64,000 nt of DNA. Origin: Apostichopus japonicus. Lineage: Eukaryota; Echinodermata; Holothuroidea; Aspidochirotida; Stichopodidae. The stretch covers positions 28,131,989 through 28,195,988 of the forward strand of contig NC_092572.1 in assembly GCF_037975245.1 (NCBI RefSeq), in the 5' to 3' direction. Each line of letters begins with the position of its first letter. The stretch's first letter is position 1. The notes beneath the pieces were generated by a model. That model was not told the DNA's origin and did not search any database. It saw only the letters and a program-made list of their open reading frames with translations. Positions 16,179 to 37,135 of this stretch are shown in pieces. The translations under genes were made by a program, and so were the position numbers.

Positions 16179-16184
16179 AGTACG
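16179..16184 (+). repeat. Left 6-bp target-site duplication AGTACG
   Basis: AGTACG directly precedes the TATGGC terminus. The identical hexamer directly follows the other terminus at 36952-36957. Confidence 0.9.
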
Positions 16185-16239
16185 TATGGCAAGCCGTTTT
16201 ACTTTTTATTCGATATTTGATGATATCATCAAATATTTG
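16185..16239 (+). repeat. Left 55-bp terminal inverted repeat
   Basis: It begins TATGGCAAGCCGTTTTACTT and ends with ATATTTG at 16239. Its reverse complement is found without mismatch at 36897-36951. It ends inside the first GATATC palindrome unit, so further similarity continues less exactly into the arrays. Confidence 0.95.
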
Positions 16240-16500
16240 CTGATATCGGCAAATGAATTGGTGATATCAGCAATTGAATTGTTGATATCAGCAAATCATT
16301 TGCTGATATCAACAATTCCAACATATCACTAATTAATTGGTGATATGAGGTACCGAATTGCTGATATCATTAAATGATTTGCTGATATCATTAAATGATT
16401 TGCTGATATCAGTAATTGAATTGGCGATATGTTGGAATTGCTGATATCAACAATTCATTTGCTGATATCAACAATTCATTTGCTGATATCAGTAATTCAA
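16210..16500. repeat. Left subterminal GATATC palindrome array
   Basis: Eleven GATATC sites plus several one-base variants (GATATG, ATATCAC) are spaced mostly 20-21 bp apart and separated by A/T-rich spacers such as AGCAAATGATTTGCT, so that each unit is itself nearly palindromic. The array lies between the terminus and the first exon of the HECT gene and may serve as transposase binding sites, as the promoter, or both. Confidence 0.9.
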
Positions 16501-16682
16501 GCGTATCGAGCCAACGTCTACAAAAAGGAATTGGAAACGAGCGCTAAAAACAAAACCCATCCACACAAACCCCGCTAATTCTGAAGTAATGGCCGTATAC
16601 ATGGTACAAACATTTTAAGCTACATCGGCTATAGCCTAGATATACATGTGTGACATGTGCACTGCATCGTATAAATTGCAAG

Positions 16683-16863
16683 ATGGAAGAAGCCGGTCCA
16701 AGTTCCAATCTCGGTTCACAGCGAACCGTCCATAACCTAGTCGGAAGAGCAAGACCAGCTATTGCCGGGTCTAGTTCGGAAGCAGAGAATGATAACGATT
16801 TCGATGTTGTCCGACAGACTTTCCGATCTTTTCGGAGACGTCGCGATACAGAAGAGAGCTTGC
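16683..16863 (+). CDS. HECT gene exon 1 (start codon)
   Basis: ATG at 16683 is the first ATG of the frame; the donor is GTAAGT at 16864. It encodes 60 residues beginning MEEAGPSSNLG, with an acidic stretch (EAENDNDFD) and an arginine cluster (RSFRRRRD). It ends in phase 1, which fits exon 2. Confidence 0.8.
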
Positions 16864-19800
16864 GTAAGTCTGACTCTGACGTTAGCCTAATTGGGTCCCC
16901 TGCTTTTTGTGTTTTAACATTAGACTTAGGCTAGGACTAATACTAGTAACGCGGTACTAATTTAGAATCCGTACCATTCGACCCTACTTCCTAACCCGGT
17001 ACTAATTTAGAATCCGTACCAATCGACCCTACTAAGTAACCCCTAACCCTATTCCCTTCTTCCTTACCCTACTCACTAACCCCTTACCATATTACTTACT
17101 TCCTAACCCTAATTCCTACTTACCCTACTCCTTAACCCTACTTTCTAACCCCTAACCTTATTCTGCCTATTCGAATTAAGCTTTACCATTCATATGGTAC
17201 GGATTCTATAGTTAGGCCCTAACCCCTAACCCTATTCCCTTCTTCCTAACCCTACTCCCTGACCCCTAACAGTAACACTTTAGTTTCCAATTTCTTGACT
17301 TTTTTTCTTGAATGTCTGTTTGCCGAATAAAAAACATTTAGGATCCACAGACTGATTGGCCATGACAAATATAAGGCCTACTTCCTAACCCTAATTCCTA
17401 ACCCCTAACCCTACTCGCTAGCCCTACTTCCTAACCCCTAATCTTATTTTGCCGATTCGAAGTAAGCTTTGCCATTCATATGGTACGGATTCTAAAGTAA
17501 GGCCAAGGCGGGAATTACTCACAGAAACTCCTTTTGTGTTTCTATTTTGTTAAAAATACAATAGGTCTAGCCTGGGGCAATATTATTCTATGCTAGTCCT
17601 ACAGTGCTTTGTACAGTACTTAACCCAGGGCCCATGCTAGGCTATATGTTACAGACTACAGTACTTACACTAGGGGCTTGATGGCCTAGCCTGGTTTGGC
17701 CTAGCATAATAATTTAGTTAGGCCTAACACATTTGAAGCCTACTTCGGCCTAACACCAGGTGTTAATATAATAAGAGAATAACATGTAGGCTAATAAAAA
17801 GGCAAGGTTTAAAAAAAACGTTTTAAGGGGAGAAAAGTGCTCCTCCCCTTTAAGAAATTTTGCCTTCAGAAGGGGGCTTAGATTCAAAATGGTTCTATCA
17901 TTTTCATTTTCTCAAACTTGTACTGTATGTTTATGCACTAGAAATTACCATTTCTTGTGAAGAACCCAGAAATCAACATGTTTTGAGAAATTAAGCAAAC
18001 TATATTTGGAAATAAAGAAAATGTGAACAATTTTCTTCTTATTATAAATGTTTTAACTGACCCCTTTGTTAATTTAAAATCAGTACATTTAAAGATGTAC
18101 TGCATCTTCTGCCAACCATAAACCTAAAAAGTAGCGGATCCAGGGTTTGGAGGAAGGGGAACCAGTCATGAAGGCAAATCCCTCACATGGGAGCATTGGA
18201 GAAAGGTGCGCCTATGACAGGGGGGGGGGGGGACTGGGGCAGAATATAAGCAGCTTTTGTTTGCAATTTTGACGGCCTTAGAATCATAATCAATACAATT
18301 TATCAGCAAATGGCAGCAATAATTGCCAAAAATAATGACTTAAATATAATAATAAATAAATACCATATATTAAAGTGCTGTTATCATGAAATAAAACATG
18401 CTCAATAGCACTGTACAAAGAACCAAAACCTGGAATATAAAATTACCAAACATGGTGAACATGCCTTCAAATTTTTGGAAAATACAGAGGCTGTGGCTGG
18501 TTGAACCCCCACATAAATCTGCACCCATTAAGGATGGGGGGTTGGTGCTGATGTTGGTTTTAAAGTCATATCCTAGACACTGTCGAAGCTGACAAACTTT
18601 GTCCTATCATTCATTGACTCCATTCATAGGGCAGTTTTTAGTAACACAAAAACATAAAGATTTTTTTCCCTTTTCTTTATAATTCAGGGTCTTCAAAGAG
18701 GGGTAGACAATTTCGAGTGGAATGGAAGGGGACTCCTTTTCTTTTGAGAAGGTCCAATCCAGACTACTTTCCATCACCTGCGGAATGTAGATTTTTGAAG
18801 GAGCAACACTTTGGTGAGAAGATCTTATTTTCTTATATGAACCAGGCTTTTGACTTTTATTAAGTTAGAATCAAAAGATGGACATAGTTACTGAGTGAAA
18901 TGAGTATTGTAATCGATGTATGGCACTGAATTACTAAACATCTTACAGTACATCGATCCATCTTTTGCCAGTCCTTATCGTGTTGAAATACTATCATACA
19001 TAGAGTTATACTGTCCAAAAATGTATGATGGTGTGATGTACTTTGTCTGTGTAGTACTAAAGAACTGGTCAAAATGCGAGTTCGGAAGCATGTTGATTAT
19101 TTATTCATGGCACATGGCTCAAATTAGCCTCACTTAGCATTACTATATAATCTGCACTTCTCTTAATTACCCAATGTACGTAGCAGGCTAGTGCATTCTC
19201 AGTTACACCAGTTGTTTAAATCTTCAGTGTCCCTTTAATGTAACCACCATCCTGTGGTAGTCCTGCACGATACATACTTACCCAGATACTGTAGGGACCA
19301 CGAGCAGTCATCATAGCATGAGTGCGTGTGTTTGAGACACTAGCTTGTATCAAACACTTAGCCGGCAAAATGGGAAATAATTATCTCAGCAAAATTTGCA
19401 CTGTTTAATGACACAGTATCCCTTTCCCGCAGCTGTATATGAGAAATATATTAGCAAACACGATAGACTGATACATTTACTGTATGTGCGTTGTGTCTTT
19501 TACTCTAGGCACCCCAGATACTCCATTTGAACCATTTAACCGCAACTGGAGTATCGAGATGCTCAAGACAAAAATTTCAGAATTATACCCCGAGAAGTCT
19601 CTTGGGGTTATCGGCTTCAAATTTGGCAGGTGTGACAAAGGGAAGAAAATTCATCTAGTTGAGCCGGCAAATGTAAGGGAACTCGAGAAGGCAGTGGGGA
19701 GAGGGAAACTTGTAGTCATTCCTAACAATGACATTGGACTTACTTCGGTAAGTGTAAGACGTATTGGGCATTGAATGAACATATACATGTGCAAGTTTCA

Positions 19801-22800
19801 GTGTGATCAGTTGTTCTGTGTTTTCATTTTAGCTTAATCTTTCCTTAAATTTCTAGTATGTCTATAATTAACTGGTAATATTAATATATGTCAATAGACT
19901 TAAAAGGGCCTTTGTTCGAATGCGTCCAGCAAGTGCAGAAATTTCAATTGGTAATACTTCAGTTGATGATATCATAACTTAATTTAAGGTACAGTATACA
20001 TGAGTTTGTAGAAGATATCTTTGAGTTCTAGGTAAACAATACAATGAAATAATACAATGACAGTATGCTACCGTAAGTGCACTCTTTCTAAGACTGTGTT
20101 ATCATACTGTACTTTAAGTTTTAATTGAACATCCGGGAATTATCAACCACATTCTAGGATTGATGGATACAATTCACTGTTAAAATTACTCAATGATTTA
20201 TTTAGAAAATCATTCATTGCAATCACAATTTCCAAATTTTACTTTTTTCCTTTTTGTGTTAAAATGTTGCAATTCGTTCACCATAAGCCTTTGTGTTTAC
20301 AGTACCTCATATTTTTTCATAATTTGTTTTTAGTAATTTTTATAAATGTTGTACAGTACCTATTACATTGTTTCTTACAGATTGAAAGTAGCAATAGACT
20401 GGAAGAATCTGGAACTCCAACTGTCACCTTTACTACACAGGATGGACAAAGAAGATCATCAGGTAAGCAAGTGATATCTTTTTTGGTTGCAACTATATGA
20501 TTCACCTATCCATTGCAATTGACCTGAAGCTAGACTAGCAATACTGTCGCCAATATAAGTCATGTAACACTTCTATCGCCGTAGTTCACTAACCTAACCA
20601 TGGCCTAAGAGTCAATGGTCATGATCTGCTTTAAAGAGTCACATAAGATCCAACCATAGACGTCAAGTGGTTCTCTGCCTTTGCAACATGATGCACAATA
20701 TTGTTCCGGTTCTTTTAAGGATCAGGGATATTGCATTAGGCAGGGCATCATGAGGAGACAAGAATATTGGACTCTGGATATAACGTTAAAGGGTACTGTA
20801 GATGCAGTCACCACAATTTACCTACAGTAGGTATATCCTTGTAACCTAATACATGTACGCTATGTTTCTTTTCTATCATGTCACGTGACAATATTTTTGT
20901 TACTGGATCGCTAAATTCATGCAGGATAAATACCTTGGTTTACCTTAAAGATAAAAGTGACAATTCCACATTCAAGAAAAGATAAGATTTTCTTAGTAAA
21001 TGCTTTTAATGGTTTTCTGTTTACACATCCGAAAGAATGGAGTCAATTTGATGTCCTGAAGTGTTGTAAAATACCGCTTAAACTTGTCATTTTCTTGTTA
21101 AAAAAATGAGCATTTTGCGAAAAGCAGTATGGTGATCATGTGGTCTAAATCAACCTGTGACGAGACAGAGGGTTTGATGGACAGCTTATGTCCGTTTATG
21201 ACCAGGGTTGAAGGTTATGTGTTGCTGCCGTGCCACACCATGTGCGTGTATGTAGTCTAAAGGTGCCTGCAACTAAAATACAGGGCCCAAATGTTGATTT
21301 AGTCATGTGAAAAGAGGCAAGGCAAAAAGAGCTGGATAAAATTCAAGTAGGGTATTTTTAGAAACCGTAGCAATGATAGTTATTGTACATTGTACCGGGC
21401 CCTGAAGGGGGGGGGGGCAACCAAATGGTATCAATCATGAGAAAAGAGACAAGGATAATTCTTTTTGCGGTACACCTACAGTATTAGACATTTGGTATCC
21501 CAAAATACTAATTGCAGCAACTTTATATTGTACCGAGCCTGTGTAGGCAGCAATCAAAGAAAGGCCCTTCGGCCCACACATAATTCATTTATGTGAAAAT
21601 GAGCAGGATAAATCTTTTAGTTGCATTGGACTCCTTGGACATTGGGGTATCCAAAAATACCAATTACAACAACTTTATGATGTAACAGGACCCATGCAGA
21701 CAGCAGCCAGAAAGGGCCTGTGGCCCACACATGATATTTAATCATGTGAAAAGAGAGCAGGATGATTTTTTATTGGTGCTGGACCCTATGTTTTTTGGGT
21801 ATACCCAAAAACCTATGACTGCAAATTTATCCTCTACCATGGCCCAGACAACCCCCCCTTCCCCCAAAAAGGCCCATACATTATTTAACCATTTGCAAAG
21901 ACCCAAGGATAATTCTTGTAGTTGCATTGGACCCTTTACCCATTGGAGAAAACCAAAAATTGCCCATCTACAACTTTTATCTGTACCGTGACTCAGGCAA
22001 CAGCCATAAAGGGCCCATGTCCCACATATGATTTGATTATGTTAACAGAGAGCAGGATAAGTCTTTTAGGGGTGTTGGCCTCATTAGTCATTGCCGTATT
22101 CAAAAATACCAACGACATCATTTTTTCCTGTAACAGGGCCCATGCAGCAACCTTAAAGGCCCAATTGCCCACACAGGAATTAATCATGTTAAAATAGACA
22201 AAGGGCCCGAAATTCTTATTTTTAGAAAAATTATTCTGATTTACCAATAATTCAACAGAAAATTCACCTCATTTTCGATTTTAACACATTCGTGAAGGAT
22301 CAGTTTATTATCACTCCTGTTTTATGAGCAACATTTATCGTTGCTTATATGGTTAAGATTTTTGCTTGCTTGCTGCAACTCCATGGAGTTGCCGCCAGTG
22401 AACAAAATGCAATCTCTTGCTGAGAGGAAATCTTTGTAGAAACCATTGCAAAATTCTTTACATTAATTATCTGTTTATGTCATTTATTCTAGTGCTATTC
22501 AAGGTCATTGCATTGTTTGCAAATTCTTAAATTCATATAACTTATGGAGGCGCAAAATCAGTATTTTAGTCTCAATTTGTTTATACCTTTCCTGATGTCC
22601 TATTTGAAAAATTCAAAAAGTATGTTATTTGGTAGCATGTAAACTACAGTGGATGTAAGAATTGGAATTTTTTTTTCTGTCTCTATTTTTCTACTTTAAA
22701 TATAGAATGTTTAACGTTCTGAAAGTCATGAAAAGTACCGTACTTGAAAAGGAAATTCAAGGAGCTTTGTTAGATTTAGCTGGTGTTTCAGAATACTGTT

Positions 22801-25800
22801 GGGAGACTTGTATACCCTTTGAGCTTGTAAAATACTAGTTATGTCTTATCTTCATTCCCTTTCTACTTGACATCAAAAGCACTCATGACAGCCTCAACAT
22901 CAACATCACCTGCTAGAGTAACAACACCAACAGTACCTGCCACAGCTTTAGAACCAAATACCCCTACTTCAACAGCCACAGATACCGCTACCTCGCAGCC
23001 AGCTGGACCATCAACGATGGTGTTAGGTAGGTCTTAAATTTATTTAGAAGACACGGGGGGACTAAGGTACAAGTATGTAAACATTTTACTTGCTAAAGTA
23101 TAGTTATCTTAAAATTGAACAAGGAAATGATGAATGTTTGTCATATATTATTTGAAAGTTTCCCTGGGTTAGACAGCAGTCAACCACACTATCCCACCCC
23201 ACCCTCTCCCAAATGGTATTAATATACTGTACCTATGTGGGATTGTGGGCATCACCCAGCATCAAGTCTGAATATTTTCACAACTGCAAATTTGGGTGGT
23301 TGACATATACCCACTGATAGTGTTTTGGTTATATATTGTAATGTAACTGTCATTATGCCATGAGGGGAGAGCCACATCAGTTACTATTATTTGGTAAACA
23401 AGTAAGTTTAACAATCCTAATGAAAGTTTGTTTGGTGTGTTGATGTCTGGTGCAATTAGCAGAATCCTTTTGATTTTGTGGATATGATAAGTGGATAGGG
23501 CAGAATTAGTTATTATGTGATGTCAGTTACTCTGCAACAACATCTGATTTTAGTCACCTTCACTACAAAGTCATTGGAAGTAAGCGTTCAAGTAAATGAA
23601 GGATGTGGAATGTCCCAGTTATTTTAAAATTAAATGACAGATATATTGGTAAGACACAGTGCACAGTGAATTGCGGGTAACCCCAAAATTGAAATAACCG
23701 CATATTATAAATACAGCAGGTGTCATTGAGAACTGTCTCTATAAACAATAGGAATCATCTGTTCTTTCGGATACTGTTAGTCATTTTCTGTATTTAACAA
23801 AGAATTGAAGTGCTAATTGAGCAAAGACCTACTGCATTAACTAAGTTGGTATAATCTATAAAAAAAATATTGACAGTTTAAGCTGTTTATAAAAAATACC
23901 TTGTAATGACTTTTTTGTGTCGGTTCACCCTAAATTATTGTATGTAAAGTCTGTATAGTATATATTTGAACAGTGTTGGACAAAGTATGTGGTCTAGCAC
24001 CGTGTTGTTTGTTTGAGTTCTTGATTTAAGTATGCCTTTTTTTCTCTTGAAAAATTATGTAACAGACAAAGTTGCAGTACATGTAGACTCAATCAATACT
24101 GGACTTAGTAATCCAACTTTCGTAAATCACTTCATTTCTTAGTAACATACTGCTTGGTGAATGCATTATATAGAAATAGTTTCCAGTTCATCAAATTGTC
24201 TCTACTTATTTCTTAGATGCCGCTGCTGACGATGAGTTACCAGATTTTGACTTGCAGTTTAATGTCATGTATGGTAAATATATTCATCCCTCATTTTCAA
24301 AATCTGCATCATTATCACATAATCAACTTCTACCTCATTATTTGTACACATATAAATGGTAACAAAGAACAGATGTGTATGCACAAATATATTGAGAAGG
24401 ATACTATTACAGTTCTCATACTTGGTATGTAGATACCGCATTTTCATAAGAAAAACTCCCTTGACTTTGATGGCAGTTTAAGGTTATCTAAGGTCACCAG
24501 TGGTCAAACTTTCAAAACCTTGTGAACACATTATCTCAAGATACAGTAAGAAGCATGGATACTTTTCATATGTAGCATGTGGTTGTGTTGCATTAAGTAG
24601 GAGAACCCCATCATTTCTTTGTGAAGGCCAAAGGTCATCTCAGGTCATCAGAGGTCAGACTGTTAAAAAATCTGCCAAAAATATTTTGCCCTACAATTAC
24701 CTTACTGAAATGTAACCCAATGCCTCTCTTGCATTCTGGTTGTTCCTCAAAGAAGGTTTAACTTTAAAATTAGTATTTATATTGCCCTTTCTAGGTGAGT
24801 AGATGACTCATGATGTTTTTCATGGAGGTAGGGATGCACTGGATATCTGGTCCGGCTGGACTATGTGACCAGACAGTAAACAATATCCATGTCTGTGTCC
24901 GGCTAGATCTTTCATGAAATACGATCGAATCTTTCACAGATTCTGGGCAGAATTAATTCTTAGAAGGTGGTGGTACTGTAGTTTCATAAATACATGTATC
25001 ATCTTTCCCCATTGTTTTTTTTTTAAATGTGTATTACATAATAAGAGATTGTCCAAGGTATGGTAGGTTAGGTGTTCATTTCACTTTTAATGTAAGTTGA
25101 TTGTGGTTTCTTAAAATTTAGACAAGTTAAAAATTATTCACATCTAAAATTACCAGAACTGACAGTGAAGGCAATTTCAAAGTTAGTCTATCCCCAGTTA
25201 TCACACACAGAAAAGTATTAAAATGTTGTTGTTGATTAATCATTTGAATGGATGAACAGCCACATTGATGTCACTGGAAACAACCATTCAGAACATGTTT
25301 CCATTAAAATACTCAAGCAAAGTAATTTATTTTGCTGTTGTTCAAAAGCCTCAAATATGTGATTTTGAAGATTTTTACATCTTTTCACCATGAAATTTGA
25401 CATTTTGCTTTGGAACCAAGTAATGTTCTGGATTTTTCCAGACCCTACATACAGTTATCACACCAAAAAGCTTCATTAATTTTCCAGTGCCTCATTTTGT
25501 GTGATTCTTTTTGGAGATAAAGCTGAGGTACAACAAATTTTATAATATGATTATCCACCAAAGTAAGCTGGGAGCAAAATGCATGCACTGACAGGGTGTC
25601 CACACAGTAGGGAAAAAAGGTAAAGTCTGGAATTTTTGTACGATCTTGAAAGTCCATGAATTGTGTAATATAGGTCTGGAAAAAATGCCATATGGTCTTG
25701 AAAATTAAAAACTTACACTTAAGGTACTTGAGATCATGTTGGTATGTGTGTCCAGTGTCCACAGTGTCTAAATGCATTAAATCAAGTTTGCAGTTTTATT

Positions 25801-28454
25801 TCTTCCCAACATAAAGCTTTCTTATTCAGTCTTAAAAATGGCCATTCTGGTCTTGATAAAGTCTTGAATTTCAGTATCTCGAAAGTGTGGTATCCCTGTA
25901 AAGAACTTTACTGCTAGGATTTTACCATACATAATGAGCATTTTTTAAAAATTTTTTTAAGATCCATTTGATACAGATCCTCCTCCTAAAAGTGGAACAA
26001 ATGAGATGGAACAGGACGTAAAGCAAGGTACAGACAGATTAAAAGTTTTTCACTGAGTTTGGCTTTTGATTACAGTGGCAAGATTTGGTATCATAACAAT
26101 CTGTATCTGAGTACAGGCCGAAGTATGTAGGTATTTGAGAAGATTATGGAGAGGTTTTTCTATGTGTTGTGTACAAATAGACTGCTGTTCTTGTGTCAAA
26201 GGTCATGATAGGTCAAGGCAGGTTAGAATGCAATTCACAATAAATTGTCTCAGTCTATTGAAAAAGAAGCTATAATCAAGTATGTATTTTATAAACATAC
26301 TTGAGCCATTTGATCTGGGTGTATCATATATGTACTTTTACAACAAGATTAGTTAAAGTATGCAATTCCAAAGATATTTTTCTGATGGATCTGCTACTGA
26401 GGCCAGCTACTACTAGAATCTTCGGTGTACCCCAGTATATTGACCTTACATATGAACTGTATGGAACAGAGAACTACTGCTGTTCACAAAATAGATGCAG
26501 TACCAAGTGATGAACTGTGGATGGCCTAAAAATAACATGAAAAGAGGATTTAACATCTGACTTCATAGCTCCGTTGGCAAAGCAAGCATAGAAAGTGGGA
26601 GGTCCCGAGTTTGAAATATATTAGAGTCATTTTACTTTCACCACTTCCATACTTTTGGTGTTATGTACAGTATATATAGCATTACATATACTAACAATAA
26701 TCACAGTGTAGCAGTGTAACTCCTAAAGTCTGTTGCACACCTCATTGACATTGACATCATTTATTTCCATCATCAATTAAATACAATAATGTTGAGCGTA
26801 ACATTTTTAAGCTCACAGAAAGCACAATACAATATAGAGACAACATTCAAGATTAAATGGAAATGGAGAAAAAAGAAGCAAAATGCTTATAAATACTTTC
26901 CCCAAACCTAAAGTAACACATCTCAATTCAACAGTCACATGCATGATAGCAGTGTGCATGTCTTCACTATGGAGACCACCTCAGTGAAGCCTGTATTAAG
27001 TGACATTATAAATGCCATAAAATATGTTGATTCTGCTCGTCTGACAGATTGCCATTTTACTGTGGTTTTAGCAATGAGCAGTGTTTTGTATATTATCCAG
27101 TCAGGATACTTGAATGTACTGTATGTATGTTACTTTTCAAATGAGGAAAAACTATGGAAGAAAAGCATGTAAGTAGCTCAGAAAGTCAACTACATGCATA
27201 GAAGTCAGTTACAGGTTTGGCAGCAGCCAGTCACATTCGTATGATCATTGGATTTGACAGAAAACTAGGTCAGGATAAGAAAATCATGAATCTGAAGGTT
27301 ATATTGAGTTTACATCTTGTCGAATATGGGCTGGCTCATTTTTCAGTGAGTTACATTGACTGATTTGCATTGTAATTTATCTATGGTTTTTTGTAATCTT
27401 TGCAGCTTTCTTAGAGTTGAACATGAGTCTGTCTGGAGAAGTGGAGGTCACAATTAAGCGTGAAGAGGTGGTTGACTGTCTCTTTAACATTCACACTAAT
27501 CCTGAGATTTGTAAACAAAAGATGAAAGTTTGCTTCGAAGGGGAGTCTGGAGATGATTTTGGTGGCCTTACAAAGGAGGCTCTCACCCTTTTCTGGAACA
27601 ACGTAACAAAGGAATTCTTCACTGGTGAACATATCACTGTACCTGGCCTGCCACTTCACCGCCTTCGCAAAGAGGAGTGGAAGTTCCGATCGCTTGGCAG
27701 GATTTTGACTCATACTGTTGCATTAACAGGTGCATTACCCTGTCGACTTTCCCAGTCAGGAATTATTGCTATGGTGTTTGACAGTGGTGTAAATCCAGAG
27801 TATCTCTGGAAGGACTGCCTCATGTTTGTTTCACCTGCAGAAAATGTTTTAATTTACAAGGCTTTAAATGACTTTGCCTCACTGACACCTACCTTGTTGG
27901 ATCGCCTTACTACATTTTTCAGTGTAAATGGCTTACTTGAAGTGCCAAAAAGAGATGAAATAAGAGACCAACTTTTGGCAATTGCAACAGAGAAGCTGGT
28001 GAAGTCTCCAAGCCGTTTCTACGCTCTGATGAGGGAAGGCATTCCAGAAGCACACCTCGGTCTGTTCTGGCGTCATCTTTCTCTGGAACACGTGTCGTAC
28101 ATAATGGACTCACAGAGACCTACTCCATCAAGAGTTGTAGAAGCTCTTCGTACCGCTGATGACTTGAGACCTCAAGAAGAGTGTGTATTATATTTCTTAA
28201 CGGAGTATATACGATCACATGACACTGATGATCTTCTTAACTTTTTACTGTTTGCAACTGCATCAATCCACCTGCCAGAAGGAGGAATAACAGTGTCTTT
28301 TGTTGCCACCTCAGGACTGCTGCGCAGGCCAGTGGCACATACTTGCTCCAACACACTGGAAATCAGCACAGCATACAACAGCAGCCAAGAATTTAAACGG
28401 GAAATGAATTTGTATTTAAGAGATAAGTATTCCTACCAATTCACACTTCCATAA
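16683..28454 (+). CDS. HECT-domain ubiquitin ligase-like protein (8 exons)
   Basis: Exons: 16683-16863, 18688-18813, 19509-19747, 20381-20462, 22880-23026, 24217-24273, 25962-26027 and 27406-28454. All introns are GT-AG and the phases agree at all seven junctions, giving 648 residues from the first ATG of exon 1 (AAGATGG context). Residues 1-60 are polar and acidic-to-arginine-rich; exon 3 (about 103-182) is a compact unrecognised domain; exons 4-7 form a Ser/Thr/Pro and acidic linker; exon 8 (about 300-648) is the HECT domain. HECT hallmarks are the N-lobe signature around 'FEGESGDDFGGLTKEAL' and the C-lobe 'AHTCSNTLEIS', whose Cys is residue 613 (codon 28344). HECT enzymes form a thioester with ubiquitin on that Cys before transferring it to a target. 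The HECT region resembles the G2E3-like proteins that are multicopy in fish and invertebrates. It lies wholly inside the transposon, starting about 500 bp from its left end, so it is probably element-encoded cargo. Substrate and function are unknown. Confidence 0.88.
16864..18687. other. HECT gene intron 1 with telomere-like CCTAACCC repeats
   Basis: About 16970-17480 is a degenerate array of CTAACCC, CTAACCCTA and CCTAACCCCTAA words. Longer duplicated words occur within it: GGTACTAATTTAGAATCCGTACCA twice near 16950-17020, and GCCATTCATATGGTACGGATTCT near 17185 and 17475. A fragment like another MITE (GTAGCGGATCCAGGG) is at about 18133, and a G tract follows at about 18220. Confidence 0.6.
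18688..18813 (+). CDS. HECT gene exon 2
   Basis: Acceptor TTCAG before 18688 and donor GTGAGA at 18814. The 42 residues contain 'RGRQFRVEWKGTPFLLRRS' and 'PDYFPSPAECRFL'. Phase 1 in, phase 1 out. No named domain was recognised. Confidence 0.75.
19509..19747 (+). CDS. HECT gene exon 3
   Basis: Acceptor CTCTAG, donor GTAAGT at 19748. Eighty residues including 'WSIEMLKTKISELYPEK' and 'GKLVVIPNNDIGL' look like a small mixed helix/strand domain, but I could not name it. Enters in phase 1 and ends in phase 0. Confidence 0.8.
20381..20462 (+). CDS. HECT gene exon 4
   Basis: Acceptor CTTACAG and donor GTAAGC. Encodes 27 linker residues beginning IESSNRLEESG. Phase 0 in, 1 out. Confidence 0.75.
21290..22215 (+). 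repeat. Diverged tandem repeat of about 140-150 bp in HECT intron 4
   Basis: Roughly six degenerate monomers share the ordered words 'gggcccatg', 'cacacatgat', 'taatcatgtgaaaagagagcaggat', 'gttgcattggaccc', 'ccaaaaatacc' and 'acaactttat..tgtac'. Short frames here are repeat artefacts. Confidence 0.65.
22880..23026 (+). CDS. HECT gene exon 5 (Thr/Ser/Pro-rich linker)
   Basis: Acceptor CAAAAG and donor GTAGGT. The 49 residues are almost entirely Thr, Ser, Ala, Pro and Val (for example ALMTASTSTSPARVTTPT), typical of a flexible linker. Phase 1 in and out. Confidence 0.75.
24217..24273 (+). CDS. HECT gene exon 6 (acidic)
   Basis: Acceptor TTCTTAG and donor GTAAAT. Nineteen residues, DAAADDELPDFDLQFNVMY. 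Phase 1 in and out. A small exon supported by phase and by both splice sites. Confidence 0.65.
24475..24670 (-). repeat. Reverse-oriented AGGTCA-type dispersed repeat
   Basis: Words such as AAGGTCACCAGTGGTCAAAC and AAGGTCATCTCAGGTCATCA match, on the opposite strand, the GACCTTTGACC family seen elsewhere. It lies in HECT intron 6. Confidence 0.55.
25962..26027 (+). CDS. HECT gene exon 7
   Basis: Acceptor TTTTTTTAAG and donor GTACAG. Twenty-two residues, including DPFDTDPPPKSGTNEM. Phase 1 in and out. Confidence 0.65.
27406..28454 (+). CDS. HECT gene exon 8 (whole HECT domain, stop)
   Basis: Acceptor TTTGCAG before 27406, stop TAA at 28452-28454. The exon supplies residues 300-648. The N lobe carries the conserved 'F-E-G-E-x-G-D-D-F-G-G-L-T' segment; the C lobe ends with 'P-V-A-H-T-C-S-N-T-L-E' and a downstream 'Y-N-S-S-Q-E-F' segment, matching the HECT catalytic loop and its flank. 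The length of about 345 residues is normal for the domain, and there is no internal stop. The last four residues after the Phe (T-L-P) form a short hydrophobic end. Confidence 0.93.
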
Positions 28455-30839
28455 ACAGTCTCCCTTTCCGTATTTCTTTGTTCATGTACGTGTTGAATTT
28501 TTTATTACATTTAATTCAGGGTTGCCATGCACTAGCCATCACCTTAAGTTTTTAATGTTTCCTACATTCCATCCATTTCTGGCAACTATTTTTGCATACA
28601 CTATTTTGATACTTTGACATTTTGTAGTAGCCATTTGTTTAAATTTTAGATTCACTTGTAGACGTCAATTCTTGCCCTGTTGTTTATTGATACATGTGTA
28701 TTATAAAGTAAATGCTTAAAGGGTGCCAAATAAGTCAAGTCTAAATGCTTTATTTTCACAAAGATGCAGAGGGGTTCCAAGTGACATTTCAAGATTAACT
28801 TTTCTTAAATCAATTTCACATTAATATATCAGTGTTTTATTCTTCCCAATTATTGATAAGTATCTGGTCTTTCCTTATCGTTTTTCTGTTTAGATCTAAG
28901 GACAATTTAACATAGCTTCCGTTTAAGAATAATGTGCTTACAACTCAAATAGACAGGAGCAACTCACAAATGTGCTGAATTTATAAAAAAAAAAAAAGGT
29001 CTCAACAAAAGACAAGTTGCAAACTTGGTGACCTGATGTAGATGAGCTATGTAATGACCCAAGAAGTCATTAACATCTACCTGGTAGTAAAGCCTCTCCT
29101 TTTTCAGCTTCAGTTTATGTTTGTAATGTCACTTTAGGTATTAGCACGTATGTTATGAGAAATCTTATACATCTTCTTTACTTTCTTATCAATTACCATT
29201 GCTCTTTTATTTTAGTGCTGTTCCATTTAACTGCAAGGATCACTCTCATAGTCAAGGTAATCTCTATAACAAAGATTCTTGTATAAGCATTAATTATATT
29301 TCAGTAAGAACATTGTTTTCATAAAGACGAGATGGACACAGACAGCTGTTATCACAGAGCAATATATTCCACCAACACAGTGATAGTGTTGTTTTGTTCA
29401 TACCGCAGACTCTCATTTCATTCAACGTGAATTGATCTGTATTAGTTTGAACTTAATAATCTTTTTGTACTTTGACTTTAAATATGATACTTGACATTTT
29501 CTATCAAAGTTGCATTGGCTGACCCAAATGGATATTACCAATGAAATACCTCTAACTGACATACATGATCCTTTAATATTTTACAAAATGTGTGGGTTGT
29601 GGTTATACTTTTGAATAGTCCACATACCTTTAAGTACCATTGCATACTGATTAACTATGAACGTTACCTGTACCTCTTAATCTCTTTTGGACGTGTCTCC
29701 AGCTGCTTTTTACAATCAGTTGCATGTAAAGACATACTTCATATTTCATTTAGGACAAACCTTGTCATGATACCATTACAGAAATATCTTGTTTTCAGGC
29801 CCTTACCAAAAGTTTATATTCCAACTTGCCAAAATATTGAAGTATGATCGGTGCATATCAGGCTCACATTAGCCTTATGAAAGTCACTATTAAGTACCTT
29901 AATCCATCAAAAATAAGAACAAGCAAAACTACGCACATAATTTCAGCAAATGTATTCTGCCTTACTCATGATTTTTAGCTTTGCCTTTCTAATATATGAA
30001 TTTCACATATTATGTAAAGTATCAGCAGTGATGTAATATCCTTTTTTGGTAACTTTGTGTGCTATCGGTGTTTTCTTGCCTTTATAATAAATTTTGTTTT
30101 TAATAGAGACAAACTTTTTTATCTTTCTCATCATATGTCGTGCAGGTTTGCAAATCATTTTAGTGACAACTTTTTGATTTGATTGAAGAGAGCAAACCAA
30201 TAAGTCAGAATTTGAGAAACACTACTTAAACTGGCTGTGGGCTGAACAAGTTACATTCAGTTCACCTTTCCAACGGTGTTGTAAAACATCACAAAGGATG
30301 TTTAGGAAGGGTAAAACAAGAAATTTGACAGGATCAGCTGATGTTTCACACTTGAGTAAGGGCGACTGCTTATGCCATTTTAAAGAGTTTCAACAAGATC
30401 ATCCCTGAATTTAACACCATTACATTTCCATCATCAAAGGCATTGACTACGCCTTATGTTTCTGGCATGTGCATAATAGATTATTCCCATCTTTTAGCCT
30501 GCCTCTCCTTAAAATACTCAAATAGTAGTTATGAATATGGTAAGTGCCAACTAAATGAGTTGTATGTATTTGCACTAGTCCTCATTTTATTTGTTCAACA
30601 TGAATGTAGTTCATAGTTCATACTGCCGTAGATTTCCACGACCCTTAAAAAAATTAAAAAAAGTCAAATGATTTTGCAACATCCCATATTATTGCTGACC
30701 AGAAGTGCACAGGTATTGGAATATTCATTAATGCATGCTTCTACATACAGTATAAGGTTGAAGTTCAAACCATATTTCACTTCCTAAGTGATGATATTTA
30801 TTTATATTTATATCTAATTGATTCAAGGAAACTTAACCT
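28455..30839. other. Region between the two convergent transposon genes
   Basis: Probably holds the 3' UTR of the HECT gene. Candidate AATAAA at 30086-30091 is far from the stop, so the true polyadenylation site is uncertain. No exon or RNA gene was recognised. Confidence 0.4.
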
Positions 30840-31085
30840 CTATGAAAAACAATAGCGATCAGCTACTTACCAAGGACTACATATATACAAATTTTCACTT
30901 CTTGAGATCTGGTGTTTACAAGGTTTGAGAGTTTTCACTCTTGACCTTGAATGACCTTTGACCTGCATGAAAAACAATAGGGATCATCTACTCACCAAGG
31001 GCTATCTACAATGCAAGTTTGAAGTTCAAGCAACTTTCCCTTCTTGAGATGGAGTGTTTATAAGCCAAGGCGTCACACACGCACA
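30840..31085 (+). repeat. GACCTTTGACC dispersed repeat copy
   Basis: About two monomers, including TTGACCTTGAATGACCTTTG, AAAACAATAGGGATCATCTA and TTCTTGAGATGGAGTGTTTA, ending with the usual CACACACGCACACAC tail at about 31074. It lies inside the transposon. Confidence 0.75.
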
Positions 31086-31557
31086 CACAAAGTAAAGTGA
31101 ATTACAGCAGTACCAACATCTGTTAGGCAAAATAAGCTTTACATTTGGAAAAATATGAGAAATAGCCTTTGATGAAAACAATGATTTTAGAAAAAGGATT
31201 AATTTTCCAGAAGACCTTGAACAGCTCAGGAAAACTAGATATTTCCATTAAGTTAACATTGTTTTTATATGTGTAACATAAGTCAGGGATATTCAGTGAC
31301 TTTGTGTTACATGCCTAGCTTTCTCTGAAGATGATGTTGAATGCAGTTAACCTAAATACCTGTGAAAAATATTTAAGGTTTTAAAACTGATGAAGATAAA
31401 ACATTAGTTAGCTAATCATGCAAAATTCATAGACGTTAAGGAATTTTCCTCAAGTTGCAAATTTTGCCATCAGTGTCTTATAGTCGGCTCTACAACGCCA
31501 TCACCATCTCATAGATTCCTTCGGCAAGGATTTAAAAATACAAAACACATTTTCAGC

Positions 31558-32332
31558 TCATCGCAACATTTCATTTAGGATGGTGACACATCTTCTGTAT
31601 TTCAATTTGCTACCTCCATTGGTGTTGTCCACTGCATTTCTCAGTTGCTGCATCTGATCGTTGTCAAGACCTTCTATTGAGTGACTGTCAACACCATCCA
31701 TGGATACAGTTCTTCCCACTGTTTGCTCACTGCCTTCTTCATCATTAGCCTCCAAGAGAGAACACAATTTTGCTTCTAGGTTGTCATCTTCCTCTTGAAA
31801 CATCTCCCTTACTACTGTTGCTGTTGAGTTTGTGTTCTGTAGAAAACCATCTAGCCAAATTTGATGAGGTGTTCTACTTTGCTCTGTTCTAATTTTATGG
31901 CTGTTCCACCCATTTCTGAACTGTTCCATGAGCTGATTGATTTCATCCAGATAGACAAATTTAAGTGCAAACATTTCTGTGGGGCTGTCAATGTGTAAGA
32001 GGTCATTGTCTTCTAATTTATAAAATTCTTTATACAAAGTTGAAGTGACATCCTTGTGAACATCTCGCCACAGACGCTCGATTCTTTCATTATGTACTGA
32101 TTGTCCAGTGATGTGGCTTCCCCGTCCACTTCCTCTTAACAAATTCATGAGAAGGGCAACATCAATGTTTTCACTGCCATAGTCTGACCTGACACGGGAG
32201 GGAAGACCATACCTTTTTGCAGCTTGCACAAACGATCTCTGAACAACATCAGCCTGGTTAGTTGTAGAACAATTTAAGTACACAACCATGCGTGAATAAC
32301 CGTCGATGCCACCATGTGTCACAAATCCCCAT
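31558..32332 (-). CDS. Transposase exon 4 (catalytic core and C terminus)
   Basis: Acceptor TTTCACACAG before 32332 and stop TGA at 31558-31560. It carries D312 and E347 plus the conserved 'GIDGYSR', 'NGWNSHKIRTE' and 'TPHQIW' segments. Its first base completes the Arg codon begun in exon 3. Confidence 0.93.
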
Positions 32333-35300
32333 CTGTGTGAAACAAAACAAATCTTCATATCATTTACAGTACTAAAACTTATGTTTCGATCATGCCATGA
32401 GTTTCAGGTTTATTAGACATTTGGTTCTGTAATAATGGTGTTACAGGCAAAGCATCACAAAACAGTACAATAAAACAGAAGGAACAAGAATGCAAAAATT
32501 GATTGAGGTTTGATGACTTCATTACACTAGACATCTGCTCGTTCACCAGAAATAGTTCTTAAAATATAAATGTCCTGAATAGCTTTTGGATCTACCAGTA
32601 CACTATGGCATGTACAAAACACATCATTCTTCTGTGAAAAATCACCCACAATAAACAATAGGGGTCATGTAGTCAATGTGAGCAACCTCACACCAACTAT
32701 GAGAAGTATCCATTATTACTCCCTTCAAATATTGTGTTTAGGTTTTCAGAGTTGACCTCTGGTGACCTCAAAATGTTCTGAATTGTTGTTCTCAGTAAGA
32801 TGAATGTGACTCACGGTATTCATAGCCCAGCCAACATGCCCAGCTGGGCTTAGAGGTAGTCTGTATTGGCCCCAAATTATAGCATGCTATAATTTCTAGA
32901 CGTTTTTAAAAAGTACTTTCCTGGAGGTCTTTACTATCCAAATTGTTCTCAGACATTCTAAATGAACACAAGATGACTAAATTTCCCAGTGAGGTAAATT
33001 TCTTGAAAAAAATATATCAAGAGTAAAGTAACCCATGTTTTGGCTAATGTCGGGCTTTCCGTTACTCTGGAGCCCAGCTGGCTCCCAAGCGCGGCCCAAC
33101 TGGGCAGACACTCTTATTTGATTGATGCTTATTTCTTAGAAAATTCATGTTGTTGGCATTTTGTGTGTTATTGGGAGTTTTAAGTTAAAGGATAGGCTAT
33201 GTGATTACAGCTTAATGTCAATCTAAAATTTAGTTCAATTTTTGCTGGGCTGCAGCTGGGCTATTGCTGGAGTTTCCCACTATTTGGAACCCAGCTAGGG
33301 CCCTACTGGGCACTTCTTTGGACAAACACTCTTCAGTTCATAAACCCAATTTTGTCAACCTTGAAAAAAATAAAAGAAAAAAATTAACATGTTTGTATCT
33401 GGCTTAACCCTTACAAAAACTTCACACATGTTTTCCTGCCTACCGTTTTGGGATGTACTTATTTATCAAGCAAGGCCATATATACTGTAGCTAGGCCTGT
33501 AGCGGTTAATTACCCCACGGACAAGTTTGAATTTTGAGAAATAAATGTGTGTCATATATGGTATTCTACAGTGTGTAGACTAAATCCGTGCAGCATTTCA
33601 AATTGAAGTTTTCTCATAGCTTTGAGTCCAAACAGTATCTATTGGTGTGTTTAAGCATCAGTCATCACCTACTGCCTTAATGGAGGATCTGAACAGAAAC
33701 CGCCCAAATGAAAGAAAGAAAAGGCACCTAACTATATGCATATTACTTGCTTTCATGCCCATATGGTTTACCCAAAAAGCAGCTGGAGCCCACCTATAAC
33801 CCAACCATAGCCCAGATGGAGCCCGGCTGGGCCTAGGTCGTGCTAGCTCAGTTGGGGCCCACCTAGGACCCACGTGGGCCCCGGTTGGGACAAACACGGC
33901 TTGGCCCCAGCTGGGAATGTTGGCTGGGAGGTTCGAGGACTAACTGACAGCAACTTTAAAGAAATTAATAGATTGTGAAAAAATTGATATATTGGGATTA
34001 CTGTGGATATGCCAACCTTGGAATTGTCTTCTTGTTTTTCACTATGTGGCCAGACAGCCAGGCCGCACTGGATATCCGGTGCATCCCAAGGCTTTACAGC
34101 GAACAAGCCAATTGAATACATCGAGGCAGTCACCCGAGGACATTTTGACAGTGTGTAGTATGAAGTCTAGCTTTTTATATACCAAACAGTGTGTTAGTCT
34201 GTTGATTATTTAAAACCATCACAGGGAATAATTTAGTGTTCAAATTTTGCCTAGCATTTCTGAGGTTTTTTCAGTTCTTAAGCATAAATACATTAAAAAC
34301 CCTGGGGTTATGCATGCGAAAAAAATGCTACAGATGTTCCATTTGTGTAGCATTTTGACCAGTTTGTATAGCCAAATGAGATGTGATACTGGATAAATTA
34401 TTCCCTGCACGTCCATAGAGCAAAATTGAGACAAACCTAATGAGTTTCATATGGCCATCTATATGCCAAAGACTGTTGGGTGTTGGAACAAAGTAAGTTC
34501 TTCTGGCCACGGTCCTTCCCCATCTACTGGCAGTTCCCACCGGATCAGCTGTACGCAACATGGAGCGATTTTTTTGCCGTGGGACCAGAATTCCTTGGCT
34601 CCTAAGGTATCCATTTATCATCTGAAAATAAAAAAGCATACAATATACAGCATCAGAAAACCACGGGGGGCAGCATGCAATTCCACCCTGGAAAAGACAG
34701 AAAAAGGTCCCATAATTGCATTGACTGGGCCGAAAAAATATAGGAAAAGTGAAGAAAATGGCCCCATAAATTCTTATCACAGAATATGAGATGAAGCTAT
34801 TCTTATTTTTTTTCTGGTAATGAAGTTTCTTTGGCCAATCTCAGCCTAGTTTTGATAGAAACTGCTACCAGCCAAGATCAGTCTGTGCTGATAGACCATA
34901 CAGTACACCATTGTTAGTAGCGACCATGCTAGAAAGTTTGTGTAACCTTTGGGATCAGTATGTACGTAGATATTGTTGATATTTTTCCCACACAGGCAAA
35001 CATATGCCGTGTACCACTATTAACACGAAAACACACGTGTTTTCGAAGATACCAACTAGCATTTGCACTGCTAAATTTGACAGTGAAATATCAGCCATTT
35101 ACCCTACAAAACCACCATCTTATATACAAACAGTTACCCACCAACTGTTATGATTGACCTACTTATTTGAGAATCTTTTGCAACTTCAATTCTTCAGAAT
35201 GGAAAGAATGTATTATTGTAACATGAACAAACCTCTGTGCCACTATTTGGGTGCTGCTTACTCAAGTTAGTAATAATGGCTGTTAGGTCTTCTTCACTCA

Positions 35301-36233
35301 TGTTTGTGTAACGTTGTCTCATTTTCATCCCATGTTGGTAAAGGAGCTTGTACACAGCAGCAACTGAACACTTAAACTGTTGCGCCATTCTCTTTGCAGA
35401 ATAACCCTTTTCATACAGGTAACGCAACTGCTCAAATGGTATTTCCAATCTCGGCCTTCCTCTTCGACCTGTTGAACAGCAAAAGTAAACATACACTGTC
35501 ACTAAGAAAACAAAAACAGATTCACAATCAAACAGTGACGTAGCCAGAAATAGGATGTTTAACTTCCGCAGTCACATGCAACGTTGCATTTTGACTTATG
35601 AAAGATAATCTAGAGTGCCAAACTTGTGTGCGAGTGTAATGACATACCGTACATTATACAACGGGAGGGGAAAGGGGACTAAGTTACACAGTACTACTAC
35701 TGCCACTGGGAGTGGTACGGTAACTACTCATGCACTTGTTACAGGGAGGACAAACGTTGGGCAAGCACCGAAGGGCCAGGCCTATAAACCTATAGATGAG
35801 AGGCTATGACAAATAATACCGGGGTGGTTAAGTAGTTCAATATGAAAGACCAAAATGTTAAAAGTATACCATGGTCGGCGACAGGAACAGGCTGGTAAAT
35901 GTGCCCATTAGACTGGCTCCCCGATGGTGGCTGCAACGTTCCGTCTGGCTGTGCCTGTGCGTCTGCGATAGAAAGGAGCTGATCTAGCACAGCTGCTATA
36001 GAATTGAACCTGTGCTCATCGATGCTCGCGTTAATCCGCTCTAAATTTCTCTTTGCTTGGAGAAGACGTTCTTTCGCTTCAGAAGCATTGTCATTGTCAG
36101 TTAAGAGCCGCTCTACTTCGCCCAAAATCCGAGAAATTCTGTCAAGAACGATCTGTGCTTCGTCATTTACAGCCATCGCCATGGTGAAAGTACCGCTATC
36201 GGTACCCTGTTGTCTCGCCACTGTCATTTGCAT
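31558..36233 (-). CDS. Integrase-like DDE transposase (4 exons)
   Basis: Exons on the minus strand: 36233-35870, 35468-35233, 34621-34437 and 32332-31558. All introns are GT-AG and the phases agree at every junction, giving 519 residues. Exon 1 encodes a helical, acidic N-terminal region (ERLLTDNDNASEAKERLLQ). Exon 2 has an 'RRGRPRLEI' basic patch then a helix-turn-helix of the kind found in resolvases and transposases. Exons 3 and 4 hold the retroviral-integrase-like core: first Asp in 'LWHIDGHMKL' (D255), second in 'RVRSDYGSEN' (D312), and Glu in 'HNERIERLWRDV' (E347), a DD34E arrangement. 'HGGIDGYSRMVVYL' is a hallmark of this eukaryotic integrase family. The acidic C-terminal tail is family-variable. 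It would cut and join the transposon ends. The gene starts about 720 bp from the right end, next to the GATATC array. The start could instead be the in-frame ATG at 36182. Confidence 0.92.
32640..32825 (+). repeat. GACCTTTGACC repeat fragment in transposase intron 3
   Basis: AAACAATAGGGGTCATGTAG, TTGACCTCTGGTGACCTCAA and AGTAAGATGAATGTGACTCA are typical monomer words. The fragment is cut at 32825 by the CCAGCTGGG element. Confidence 0.6.
32826..33928. mobile_element. 1.1-kb non-coding inverted-repeat element nested in the transposon
   Basis: The ends are CCCAGCCAACATGCCCAGCTGGG at 32826-32848 and, inverted with one mismatch, 33906-33928. The interior has many CCAGCTGGG and GGGCCCA-like words, especially near 33060-33320 and 33770-33925. 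No coding capacity was seen. It sits in transposase intron 3, so it should not disturb the protein. The target duplication could not be resolved. Confidence 0.7.
34437..34621 (-). CDS. Transposase exon 3 (first catalytic Asp)
   Basis: Acceptor TTTATTTTCAG before 34621 and donor GTTTGT at 34436. The 61 complete codons contain 'GYLRSQGILVPRQ', 'RRTYFVPTPNSLWHIDG' and D255. Ends two bases into an Arg codon. Confidence 0.9.
35233..35468 (-). CDS. Transposase exon 2 (helix-turn-helix)
   Basis: Acceptor GTTCAACAG and donor GTTTGT. It encodes 'GRRGRPRLEIPFEQLRYLYE' followed by 'YSAKRMAQQFKCSVAAVYKL', a clear helix-turn-helix, and ends 'KQHPNSGTE'. Phase 1 in, phase 0 out. Confidence 0.88.
35870..36233 (-). 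CDS. Transposase exon 1 (helical N terminus)
   Basis: Encodes a 121-codon amphipathic, acidic segment with heptad-like Leu/Ile spacing (DRISRILGEVERLL, ERINASIDEHRF, AAVLDQLLSIAD) and a Pro/Gln/Ser-rich end. The donor is GTATAC at 35869. The upstream ATG at 36233 is preferred as first in frame; 36182 is an alternative. Confidence 0.75.
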
Positions 36234-36279
36234 GTACTGCACATCGTGTGCGCATGCTTGTAAGGCGGGCTGTCACGGT

Positions 36280-36925
36280 TGATTTACTGATATCATCGTC
36301 ACGGTTGAATTACTGATATCAGCAAATGATTTGTTGATATCATCAAATGAATTGGTGATATCAACAAAAGCCTGCATTAGTGATATGTACGGTTCATTTG
36401 CTGATATCATTAAATCAATTACTGATATCACCAATTGATTTGTTGATATCAGCAAATGAATTAGTGATATGTTGGAATTGTTGATATCAGCAAATGAATT
36501 AGTGATATGTTGAAATTGTTGATATCAGCAAATGAATTGGTGATATCAACAATTATTTGTTGATATCAGCAAATAATTGTTGATATCATCAAATGATTTG
36601 CTGATATCATCAAATGATTTGCTGATATCACCAAGTCATTTGGGGATATCACCAAATAATTGCTGATATCTGCAAATATTTGTTGATATCAGCAATTATT
36701 TGTTGATATCAGCAATTATTTGGTGATATCAACAAATGAATTGGTGATATCAGCAAATGAATTGGTGATATCAGCAAATGAATTGCTGATATCAACAATT
36801 ATTTGGTGATATCAGCAAATAATTGTTGATATCAGCAATTATTTGATGATATCATCAAATGATTTGATGATATCAACAATTATTTGCTGATATCACCAAA
36901 TATTTGATGATATCATCAAATATCG
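36280..36925. repeat. Right subterminal GATATC palindrome array
   Basis: About 28 GATATC sites and a few GATATG variants occur at 20-21 bp intervals, separated by near-palindromic spacers such as AGCAAATGAATTGGT. The array is over twice the length of the left one. Reading frames through it give Ile-Ser-Asn-Ser-Phe-type peptide repeats, which are artefacts. Confidence 0.92.
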
Positions 36926-36951
36926 AATAAAAAGTAAAACGGCTTGCCATA
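36897..36951 (-). repeat. Right 55-bp terminal inverted repeat
   Basis: Exact reverse complement of 16185-16239, ending GGCTTGCCATA at 36951. Confidence 0.95.
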
Positions 36952-36957
36952 AGTACG
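36952..36957 (+). repeat. Right 6-bp target-site duplication AGTACG
   Basis: Identical to 16179-16184. The two bases beyond it (TC) do not match the left side, so the duplication is exactly six bases. Confidence 0.9.
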
Positions 36958-36989: not shown

Positions 36990-37135
36990 TTAGTGTAACT
37001 GCGTAAGTGCGTAACTGCGTTAGTGCGTAACTGCGTAAGTGCGCAACTGCGTAAGTGCGTAAGTGCGTAGTTGCGTAACTGTGTAACTACCTAATTGCGT
37101 AACTTGATAAGTGCGTAACTGTGTTACTGCTTAAG
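36990..37135 (+). repeat. GCGTAACT/GCGTAAGT minisatellite
   Basis: About fifteen units of eight to nine bases (GTAACTGC, GTAAGTGC, TTAGTGC), increasingly degenerate to the right. It begins about 35 bp outside the transposon end. Confidence 0.85.

Follow-up and report, generated by a model that had tools for sequence, protein, structure and literature searches.

An apparently intact 20.8-kb IS3EU-type transposon of Apostichopus japonicus carries a transposase and a predicted HECT ubiquitin ligase as convergent partner genes

Here we describe a 20,767-bp DNA transposon at positions 16185-36951 of a 64-kb window of the Apostichopus japonicus genome (the whole stretch of DNA analysed, to which all coordinates refer unless a contig is named; it lies on contig C12 and has a G+C content of 37%). 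Cut-and-paste DNA transposons usually carry little beyond a transposase; this one holds two intron-rich genes, a transposase with an integrase-type core and a predicted HECT ubiquitin ligase. In all likelihood, it is an apparently intact two-gene cut-and-paste element of the IS3EU superfamily, in which the HECT gene is a standing partner of the transposase and most likely ubiquitylates a protein that limits transposition. The two genes form one mobile unit, recur as a pair elsewhere in the genome and diverge in a correlated fashion, and the catalytic motif of the HECT domain is conserved. An earlier note on this DNA had recognised the element and named neither the enzyme class of the second gene nor the pairing; the HECT partner gene and its repeated association with the transposase are what is new here.

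Structure of the element and its two genes

The inverted termini of the element are perfect, with 16185-16239 (+ strand) matching the reverse complement of 36897-36951 (- strand) at 55 of 55 positions; the left terminus starts TATGGCAAGCCGTTTTA, the right one finishes in TAAAACGGCTTGCCATA, and the outermost bases read TATGG..CCATA. Directly abutting both ends is AGTACG, a perfect 6-bp target-site duplication (TSD; 16179-16184 and 36952-36957). These ends are not a product of chance, because the first 17 bp of the terminus (TAYGGCAAGCCGTTTTA) have 577 exact matches in the same genome (280 + 297, with positions listed for the first 100 places), as against none (0 + 0) for the same pattern reversed. 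Each end is followed inwards by an array of palindromic repeats centred on GATATC, the left one (16213-16505) with 11 GATATC at mostly 21-bp spacing and the right one (36272-36925) with 28 at mostly 20-21-bp spacing, compared with 20 in the remainder of the window; these palindromes are probably binding sites for the transposase.

The HECT gene (+ strand) and the transposase gene (- strand) are convergent and stand 3.1 kb apart. Both models rest on predicted splicing, with GT-AG boundaries at every intron and neither a stop nor a frameshift inside. The earlier note had described perfect 55-bp inverted termini with a perfect 6-bp duplication around two complete, convergent, multi-exon genes without disabling mutations, and this description is borne out in full by the alignment of the ends and by open models of eight and four exons.

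The transposase model has four exons encoding 519 amino acids (aa; 519 codons): exon 1 at 35870-36233 (ATG at 36233, with an alternative ATG at 36182), exon 2 at 35233-35468, exon 3 at 34437-34621 and exon 4, with the stop, at 31558-32332. The predicted protein shares 98% identity with an A. japonicus protein of 529 aa. Pfam finds a helix-turn-helix match (HTH_7), located in exon 2, and an rva_4 integrase core in exon 4. By alignment, the first catalytic aspartate, D255, sits in the WHIDGH motif of exon 3, and the second, D312, lies in exon 4 together with the catalytic glutamate, E347; among 25 aligned transposases, the columns of D255 and D312 are invariant and that of E347 is nearly so. For the close relative P0017, Pfam lists no zinc-binding integrase domain up to an E-value of 0.5.

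The HECT model has eight exons, at 16683-16863 (with the ATG), 18688-18813, 19509-19747, 20381-20462, 22880-23026, 24217-24273, 25962-26027 and 27406-28454, and its 648 codons followed by a stop give a 648-aa protein that is letter for letter the A. japonicus database protein P0001. The last exon holds the catalytic domain (approximately residues 290-648), including the catalytic cysteine, C613, in the motif AHTCSN. The HECT domain scores above the Pfam cut-off in this protein, and a profile of eight HECT relatives matches HUWE1 along the domain (E-value of 6.4e-17) with the catalytic HTC aligned. Furthermore, the predicted structure of residues 290-648 has a predicted local distance difference test score mostly above 80, and its best match among solved HECT domains has an E-value of 1.1e-13. 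With a HECT fold and a catalytic cysteine in an HTC-type motif, the product is a predicted HECT E3 ubiquitin ligase.

Two features of the structural model count against this classification. The fold matches listed have root-mean-square deviations of 6-15 Å and model-normalised TM-scores of 0.24-0.39, and residues 1-290 have no confident fold. The weak fold scores probably reflect the disordered half of the model and a different placement of the two lobes. Set beside HUWE1/E6AP-type ligases, the protein shares the HECT domain, the aligned catalytic HTC and the fold match, but it is 13-19% identical to them over the domain (among the matches listed), is 648 aa long with an unrecognised N-terminal half, and is encoded by a transposon. 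Searching with a profile built from all 16 HECT relatives recovered seven proteins, five of them new and all five shorter than 400 aa, and scans of viral contigs with the HECT relative P0137 and the transposase P0017 found no relative of either.

Assignment to the IS3EU superfamily

IS3EU elements have been described as having 6-bp TSDs and TA..TA ends (Kojima 2023, PMC10045372) and, in the relevant passages of a later account, TAYGG..CCRTA ends and terminal inverted repeats (TIRs) longer than 30 bp (Kojima 2025, PMC12730594). The window element and its relatives have 6-bp TSDs at 20 of 20 insertions (detailed below), its ends read TATGG..CCATA (those of a second family likewise agree with the published pattern), and its TIRs are 55 bp and perfect. 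Its transposase has an IS3-like DDE core with no recognised HHCC domain, and the first catalytic D, D255, falls in the range of 100-300 residues from the N-terminus that characterises IS3EU. Set by the published feature descriptions, the assignment to IS3EU is thus supported on every feature that could be tested from sequence, in agreement with the earlier note, which had proposed this superfamily from the 6-bp duplication, the TAY end and the integrase-like core. The TA..TA termini, 6-bp TSD, TIR length and DDE core are shared with the IS3EU/GingerRoot lineage of Repbase (Kojima 2023), from which the window element differs in its 20.8-kb size, its two intron-rich genes and its HECT partner, a comparison made with descriptions rather than with Repbase sequences. 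Ginger1 and Ginger2, with TSDs of 4 bp or 4-5 bp (PMC10045372), were rejected on TSD length.

The other large elements to be weighed share a size, a TSD length and an integrase-type core with the window element. These are the Polintons or Mavericks, which run to 15-20 kb and carry an integrase and a protein-primed DNA polymerase gene. Their TSD is also 6 bp (PMC10045372), but the ends of the window element are TA..TA, its longest stop-to-stop open reading frame (ORF) is 364 aa, and Pfam finds no polymerase in 17 of the 20 ORFs of at least 90 aa, a search that a gene of many small exons would escape; we regard a Polinton as highly improbable.

A HECT-bearing IS3EU element was not found in searches of one open-licence library of papers, outside which lie Repbase Reports and subscription journals that may already list such elements. 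The word HECT does not occur in the IS3EU accounts of PMC10045372 and PMC12730594, in the passages available from PMC3520738 the string "hect" occurs just as part of "trophectoderm", and a paper on A. japonicus (PMC13228809) contains neither HECT nor IS3EU.

Further copies and target-site choice

Two more full-size copies, read in parts (their ends plus exon stretches), lie on other chromosomes, at C17:6325041-6345475 (20,435 bp, TSD CTCCCG) and C16:29793053-29813839 (20,787 bp, TSD CGCCCG). In both, the 30 bases compared at either end match the terminus without a mismatch, and both enclose the final exons of the HECT and transposase genes, 99.1-99.6% identical to those of the window; over 3.84 kb surrounding the transposase exon, the identity is 98.1% in each copy. 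The earlier note had made its single-element reading depend on termini that recur in the genome and on other copies of the two genes lying within the same ends. The 577 terminus matches speak to the first point and the C16 and C17 copies to the second, with exons of both genes bounded by the same termini and a 6-bp duplication of their own, and the single-element reading survives. In the C16 copy (L036), the transposase ends one codon earlier than in the window, a change that is probably harmless. A decayed long copy at C17:20.48-20.49 Mb retains the left end and pieces of both genes. More broadly, C17 from about 15 to 25 Mb holds a dense cluster of matches to the IS3EU transposase and to HECT, many of them interrupted by stops.

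A further copy on the window's own contig, C12:27815550-27841581 (26,032 bp; L009-L011, L030-L031), starts 333 kb from the start of the window element; within it, a segment of about 5.35 kb that covers HECT exons 2-4 is duplicated in tandem. Two full-size copies with starts this far apart might be taken for separate transposition events, but AGTACG borders both and their flanks can be aligned (98.7-99.8% identity over window positions 14,032-47,356 and 82-95% past 47,356; left of 14,032, no match to this copy longer than 300 bp is listed in the DNA fetched), which leaves separate events with hardly any probability. Because TSD and flanks are common to both, the 26-kb copy repeats the insertion seen in the window, either through a later duplication of that insertion with its surroundings (a segmental duplication) or as an assembly duplicate, and we dropped it as evidence of mobility.

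Short copies are also present, and the fetched loci include 15 distinct insertions with both ends, each with a perfect 6-bp TSD (15/15). Some retain scraps of transposase exon 1. We rejected their origin as plain deletions of the window element on the identity of their end stretches, which is about 86-93% in the seven of 15 compared. Across all independent insertions for which both ends were fetched, a non-random sample of 20 (the window element, 15 short copies, the C16 and C17 copies and two copies of the second family), the 6-bp TSD is perfect in every case. The TSDs are 78% G+C, as against 37% for the window; position 5 is C in 20/20, and a CpG stands at positions 1-2 or 5-6 in 20/20, compared with 3.7% of window hexamers. 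The preference for CpG-containing, palindrome-like hexamers resembling CGNNCG is very strong.

Pairing of HECT and transposase genes across the genome

Using Pfam models only, we grouped the hits in the genome into 58 HECT loci and 83 rva_4 loci and counted as a pair any two within 15 kb of each other. Of the HECT loci, 33 were paired, all 33 in convergent orientation, against 0.22 pairs expected from uniform placement of the loci. Replacing rva_4 with the window's transposase exon as the query gave 32 of 58 paired HECT loci (32/32 convergent), and adding hits of the window's HECT exon gave 41 of 77, with 40 convergent.

The pairing extends to a second family, with 38% HECT identity to the window. 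Two of its copies, at C16:5792413-5813831 (21,419 bp, TSD CGAACC) and C1:12260970-12283636 (22,667 bp, TSD CGGCCG), have the 17-bp terminus of the window element at their ends; its convergent gene order is that of the window element, and its subterminal palindromes differ at the end printed. Furthermore, the HECT and transposase distance matrices of ten pairs (eight from the A. japonicus genome, plus Photinus and Mytilus edulis, some with short transposase pieces) are correlated with r of 0.82, a value reached in none of 20,000 permutations. The two trees concur in placing the window with C17:16.8 and C17:21.1 and C18 with C7, and they disagree over the positions of C3:14.2, C16:42.9, Mytilus and Photinus. 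Two of the ten pairs, C17:16.8 and C17:21.1, are nearly copies of one another, so that the correlation is somewhat inflated.

Several observations weigh against so regular a partnership. The chance expectation presumes uniform placement of the loci, and on C17, where copies cluster, ten pairs were observed and 0.44 expected. One of the 41 pairs in the wider count is not convergent, 25 of the 58 Pfam HECT loci stand more than 15 kb from any rva_4 locus, and, with all HECT hits counted, 41 of the 83 rva_4 loci lack a HECT. Some of the unpaired HECT loci appear to be host genes, since they have several exons and score higher in Pfam, and some of the unpaired transposase loci are presumably fragments; IS3EU elements without a HECT may also exist. 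At C9:13.94-14.34 Mb there are six HECT fragments, all on the + strand and each with stops inside, with no rva_4 within 15 kb bar a short rva_4 scrap near one.

All 15 HECT sequences read from the genome (about eight families, sister copies included) retain the catalytic TC, and between the window HECT and that of its nearest family the proportion of synonymous differences is about 0.78 (saturated) and that of non-synonymous differences about 0.28. Among sister copies, synonymous and non-synonymous changes number 6 and 1 for L055/L056, 6 and 2 for L064/L065, and 1 and 1 for L062/L063, and 1-3 of each separate the members of a C3/C6/C12 trio; L057/L058 differ by about 4 and 15, and L058, which has lost its C-terminus, may be decaying. 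Taken together, these comparisons support long-term constraint on the HECT protein sequence. On the other side of the balance, the 15 sequences were mostly picked among matches without stops, and the family of the window element itself is young, its HECT copies differing by 1 synonymous and 3 non-synonymous changes, too few to speak of selection.

Relatives in other animals

Relatives of both genes are listed on a 121,010-bp contig in Mytilus edulis and on a 70,905,644-bp contig in Photinus pyralis. Equal contig sizes are an indirect sign of the same contig, and a weak one for the chromosome-sized Photinus contig, so that they offer an indirect hint of HECT-transposase pairing across phyla. 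In the fish Brachyhypopomus and the scallop Mizuhopecten, the listed HECT relatives are on contigs that differ in size from those of the listed transposases. The Mytilus edulis HECT P0010 has HTF in place of HTC, the catalytic cysteine being replaced by phenylalanine, and part of its N-lobe is gone; this copy may be dead.

On balance, we lean slightly towards an IS3EU lineage that acquired a HECT gene before echinoderms, molluscs and arthropods diverged (or passed it between them by horizontal transfer) and has since kept it as a second core gene. If so, many of the uncharacterised HECT proteins in fish, molluscs and insects would be products of transposon genes rather than host genes, and in the HECT a DNA transposon would encode its own dedicated ubiquitin weapon or governor.

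Possible roles of the HECT ligase

The transposase, with its helix-turn-helix and rva_4 core, would presumably bind the 17-bp terminus and the subterminal palindromic arrays, excise the element and integrate it, with a stagger of 6 bp, into sites that contain CpG; it is the anatomy of the element that points to such transposase-driven cut-and-paste movement. The HECT protein would most likely attach ubiquitin to a protein that restrains transposition; this could be a silencing or repair factor of the host, or else the element's own transposase or transpososome. Its presence beside the transposase in many related elements suggests that protein tagging helps or controls the spread of the element. 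The binding sites, the ligase activity, its substrate and its aid to movement are the parts of this scheme that we infer.

Carrying accessory enzymes is a habit of the IS3EU superfamily, because fungal TET+ IS3EU elements carry, according to the passages that describe them, an alpha-kinase gene in opposite orientation and a TET/JBP gene (Kojima 2025, PMC12730594); by analogy, the HECT would be the animal counterpart of these enzymes. As described there, the fungal elements share with ours a transposase with an oppositely oriented accessory enzyme gene, TAYGG..CCRTA ends and a 6-bp TSD, but their accessory genes encode an alpha-kinase and a TET/JBP dioxygenase rather than a HECT, and their hosts are fungi rather than animals. 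Fungal Intons also derive from IS3EU and have additional conserved proteins, but they encode five to six, and the passage that reports them does not name a HECT (Kapitonov, meeting report PMC3520738).

The substrate of the ligase would then distinguish several possibilities. The one we favour, at a little under an even chance, is a counter-defence in which the ligase would mark a silencing, chromatin or DNA-repair protein of the host for destruction. It fits the retained catalytic cysteine and the repeated pairing, and the TET/JBP genes of some fungal IS3EU elements are thought, in the passages concerned, to aid escape from silencing (PMC12730594); the low-confidence N-terminal region, however, gives no clue to a target. 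Less probable, but still a serious contender, is a ligase directed at the element's own machinery, whose ubiquitylation of the transposase would limit copy number or dismantle the post-integration complex. Pairing and correlated divergence are what one would see of a protein matched to its own transposase, but plain co-inheritance would also produce the distance correlation.

Transposons do capture host genes, and the HECT might be passive cargo, acquired once and without a role in transposition, as the lack of an excess of synonymous change in the window family, taken alone, would allow; we consider this unlikely in view of the conserved catalytic motif, the always-convergent pairing across families with 28-62% identity to the window in their transposase stretches, and the equal-sized contigs on which relatives of both genes are listed in Mytilus edulis and in Photinus pyralis.

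If the HECT has long been kept in step with the transposase, these elements would interfere with protein turnover in the manner of some viruses, and the partnership would offer a testable handle on the negotiation between transposon and host. It also carries a warning that some annotated "HECT domain" genes of animals may be owned by transposons.

Repeats within and beside the element

Two repeat tracts were noted in the window. Intron 1 of the HECT gene contains degenerate telomere-like CCCTAACCC/CCTACTTCC repeats at 16941-17441, and the flank near the right end of the element holds an 8-bp tandem repeat, GTAACTGC, in 17.5 copies at 36995-37134.

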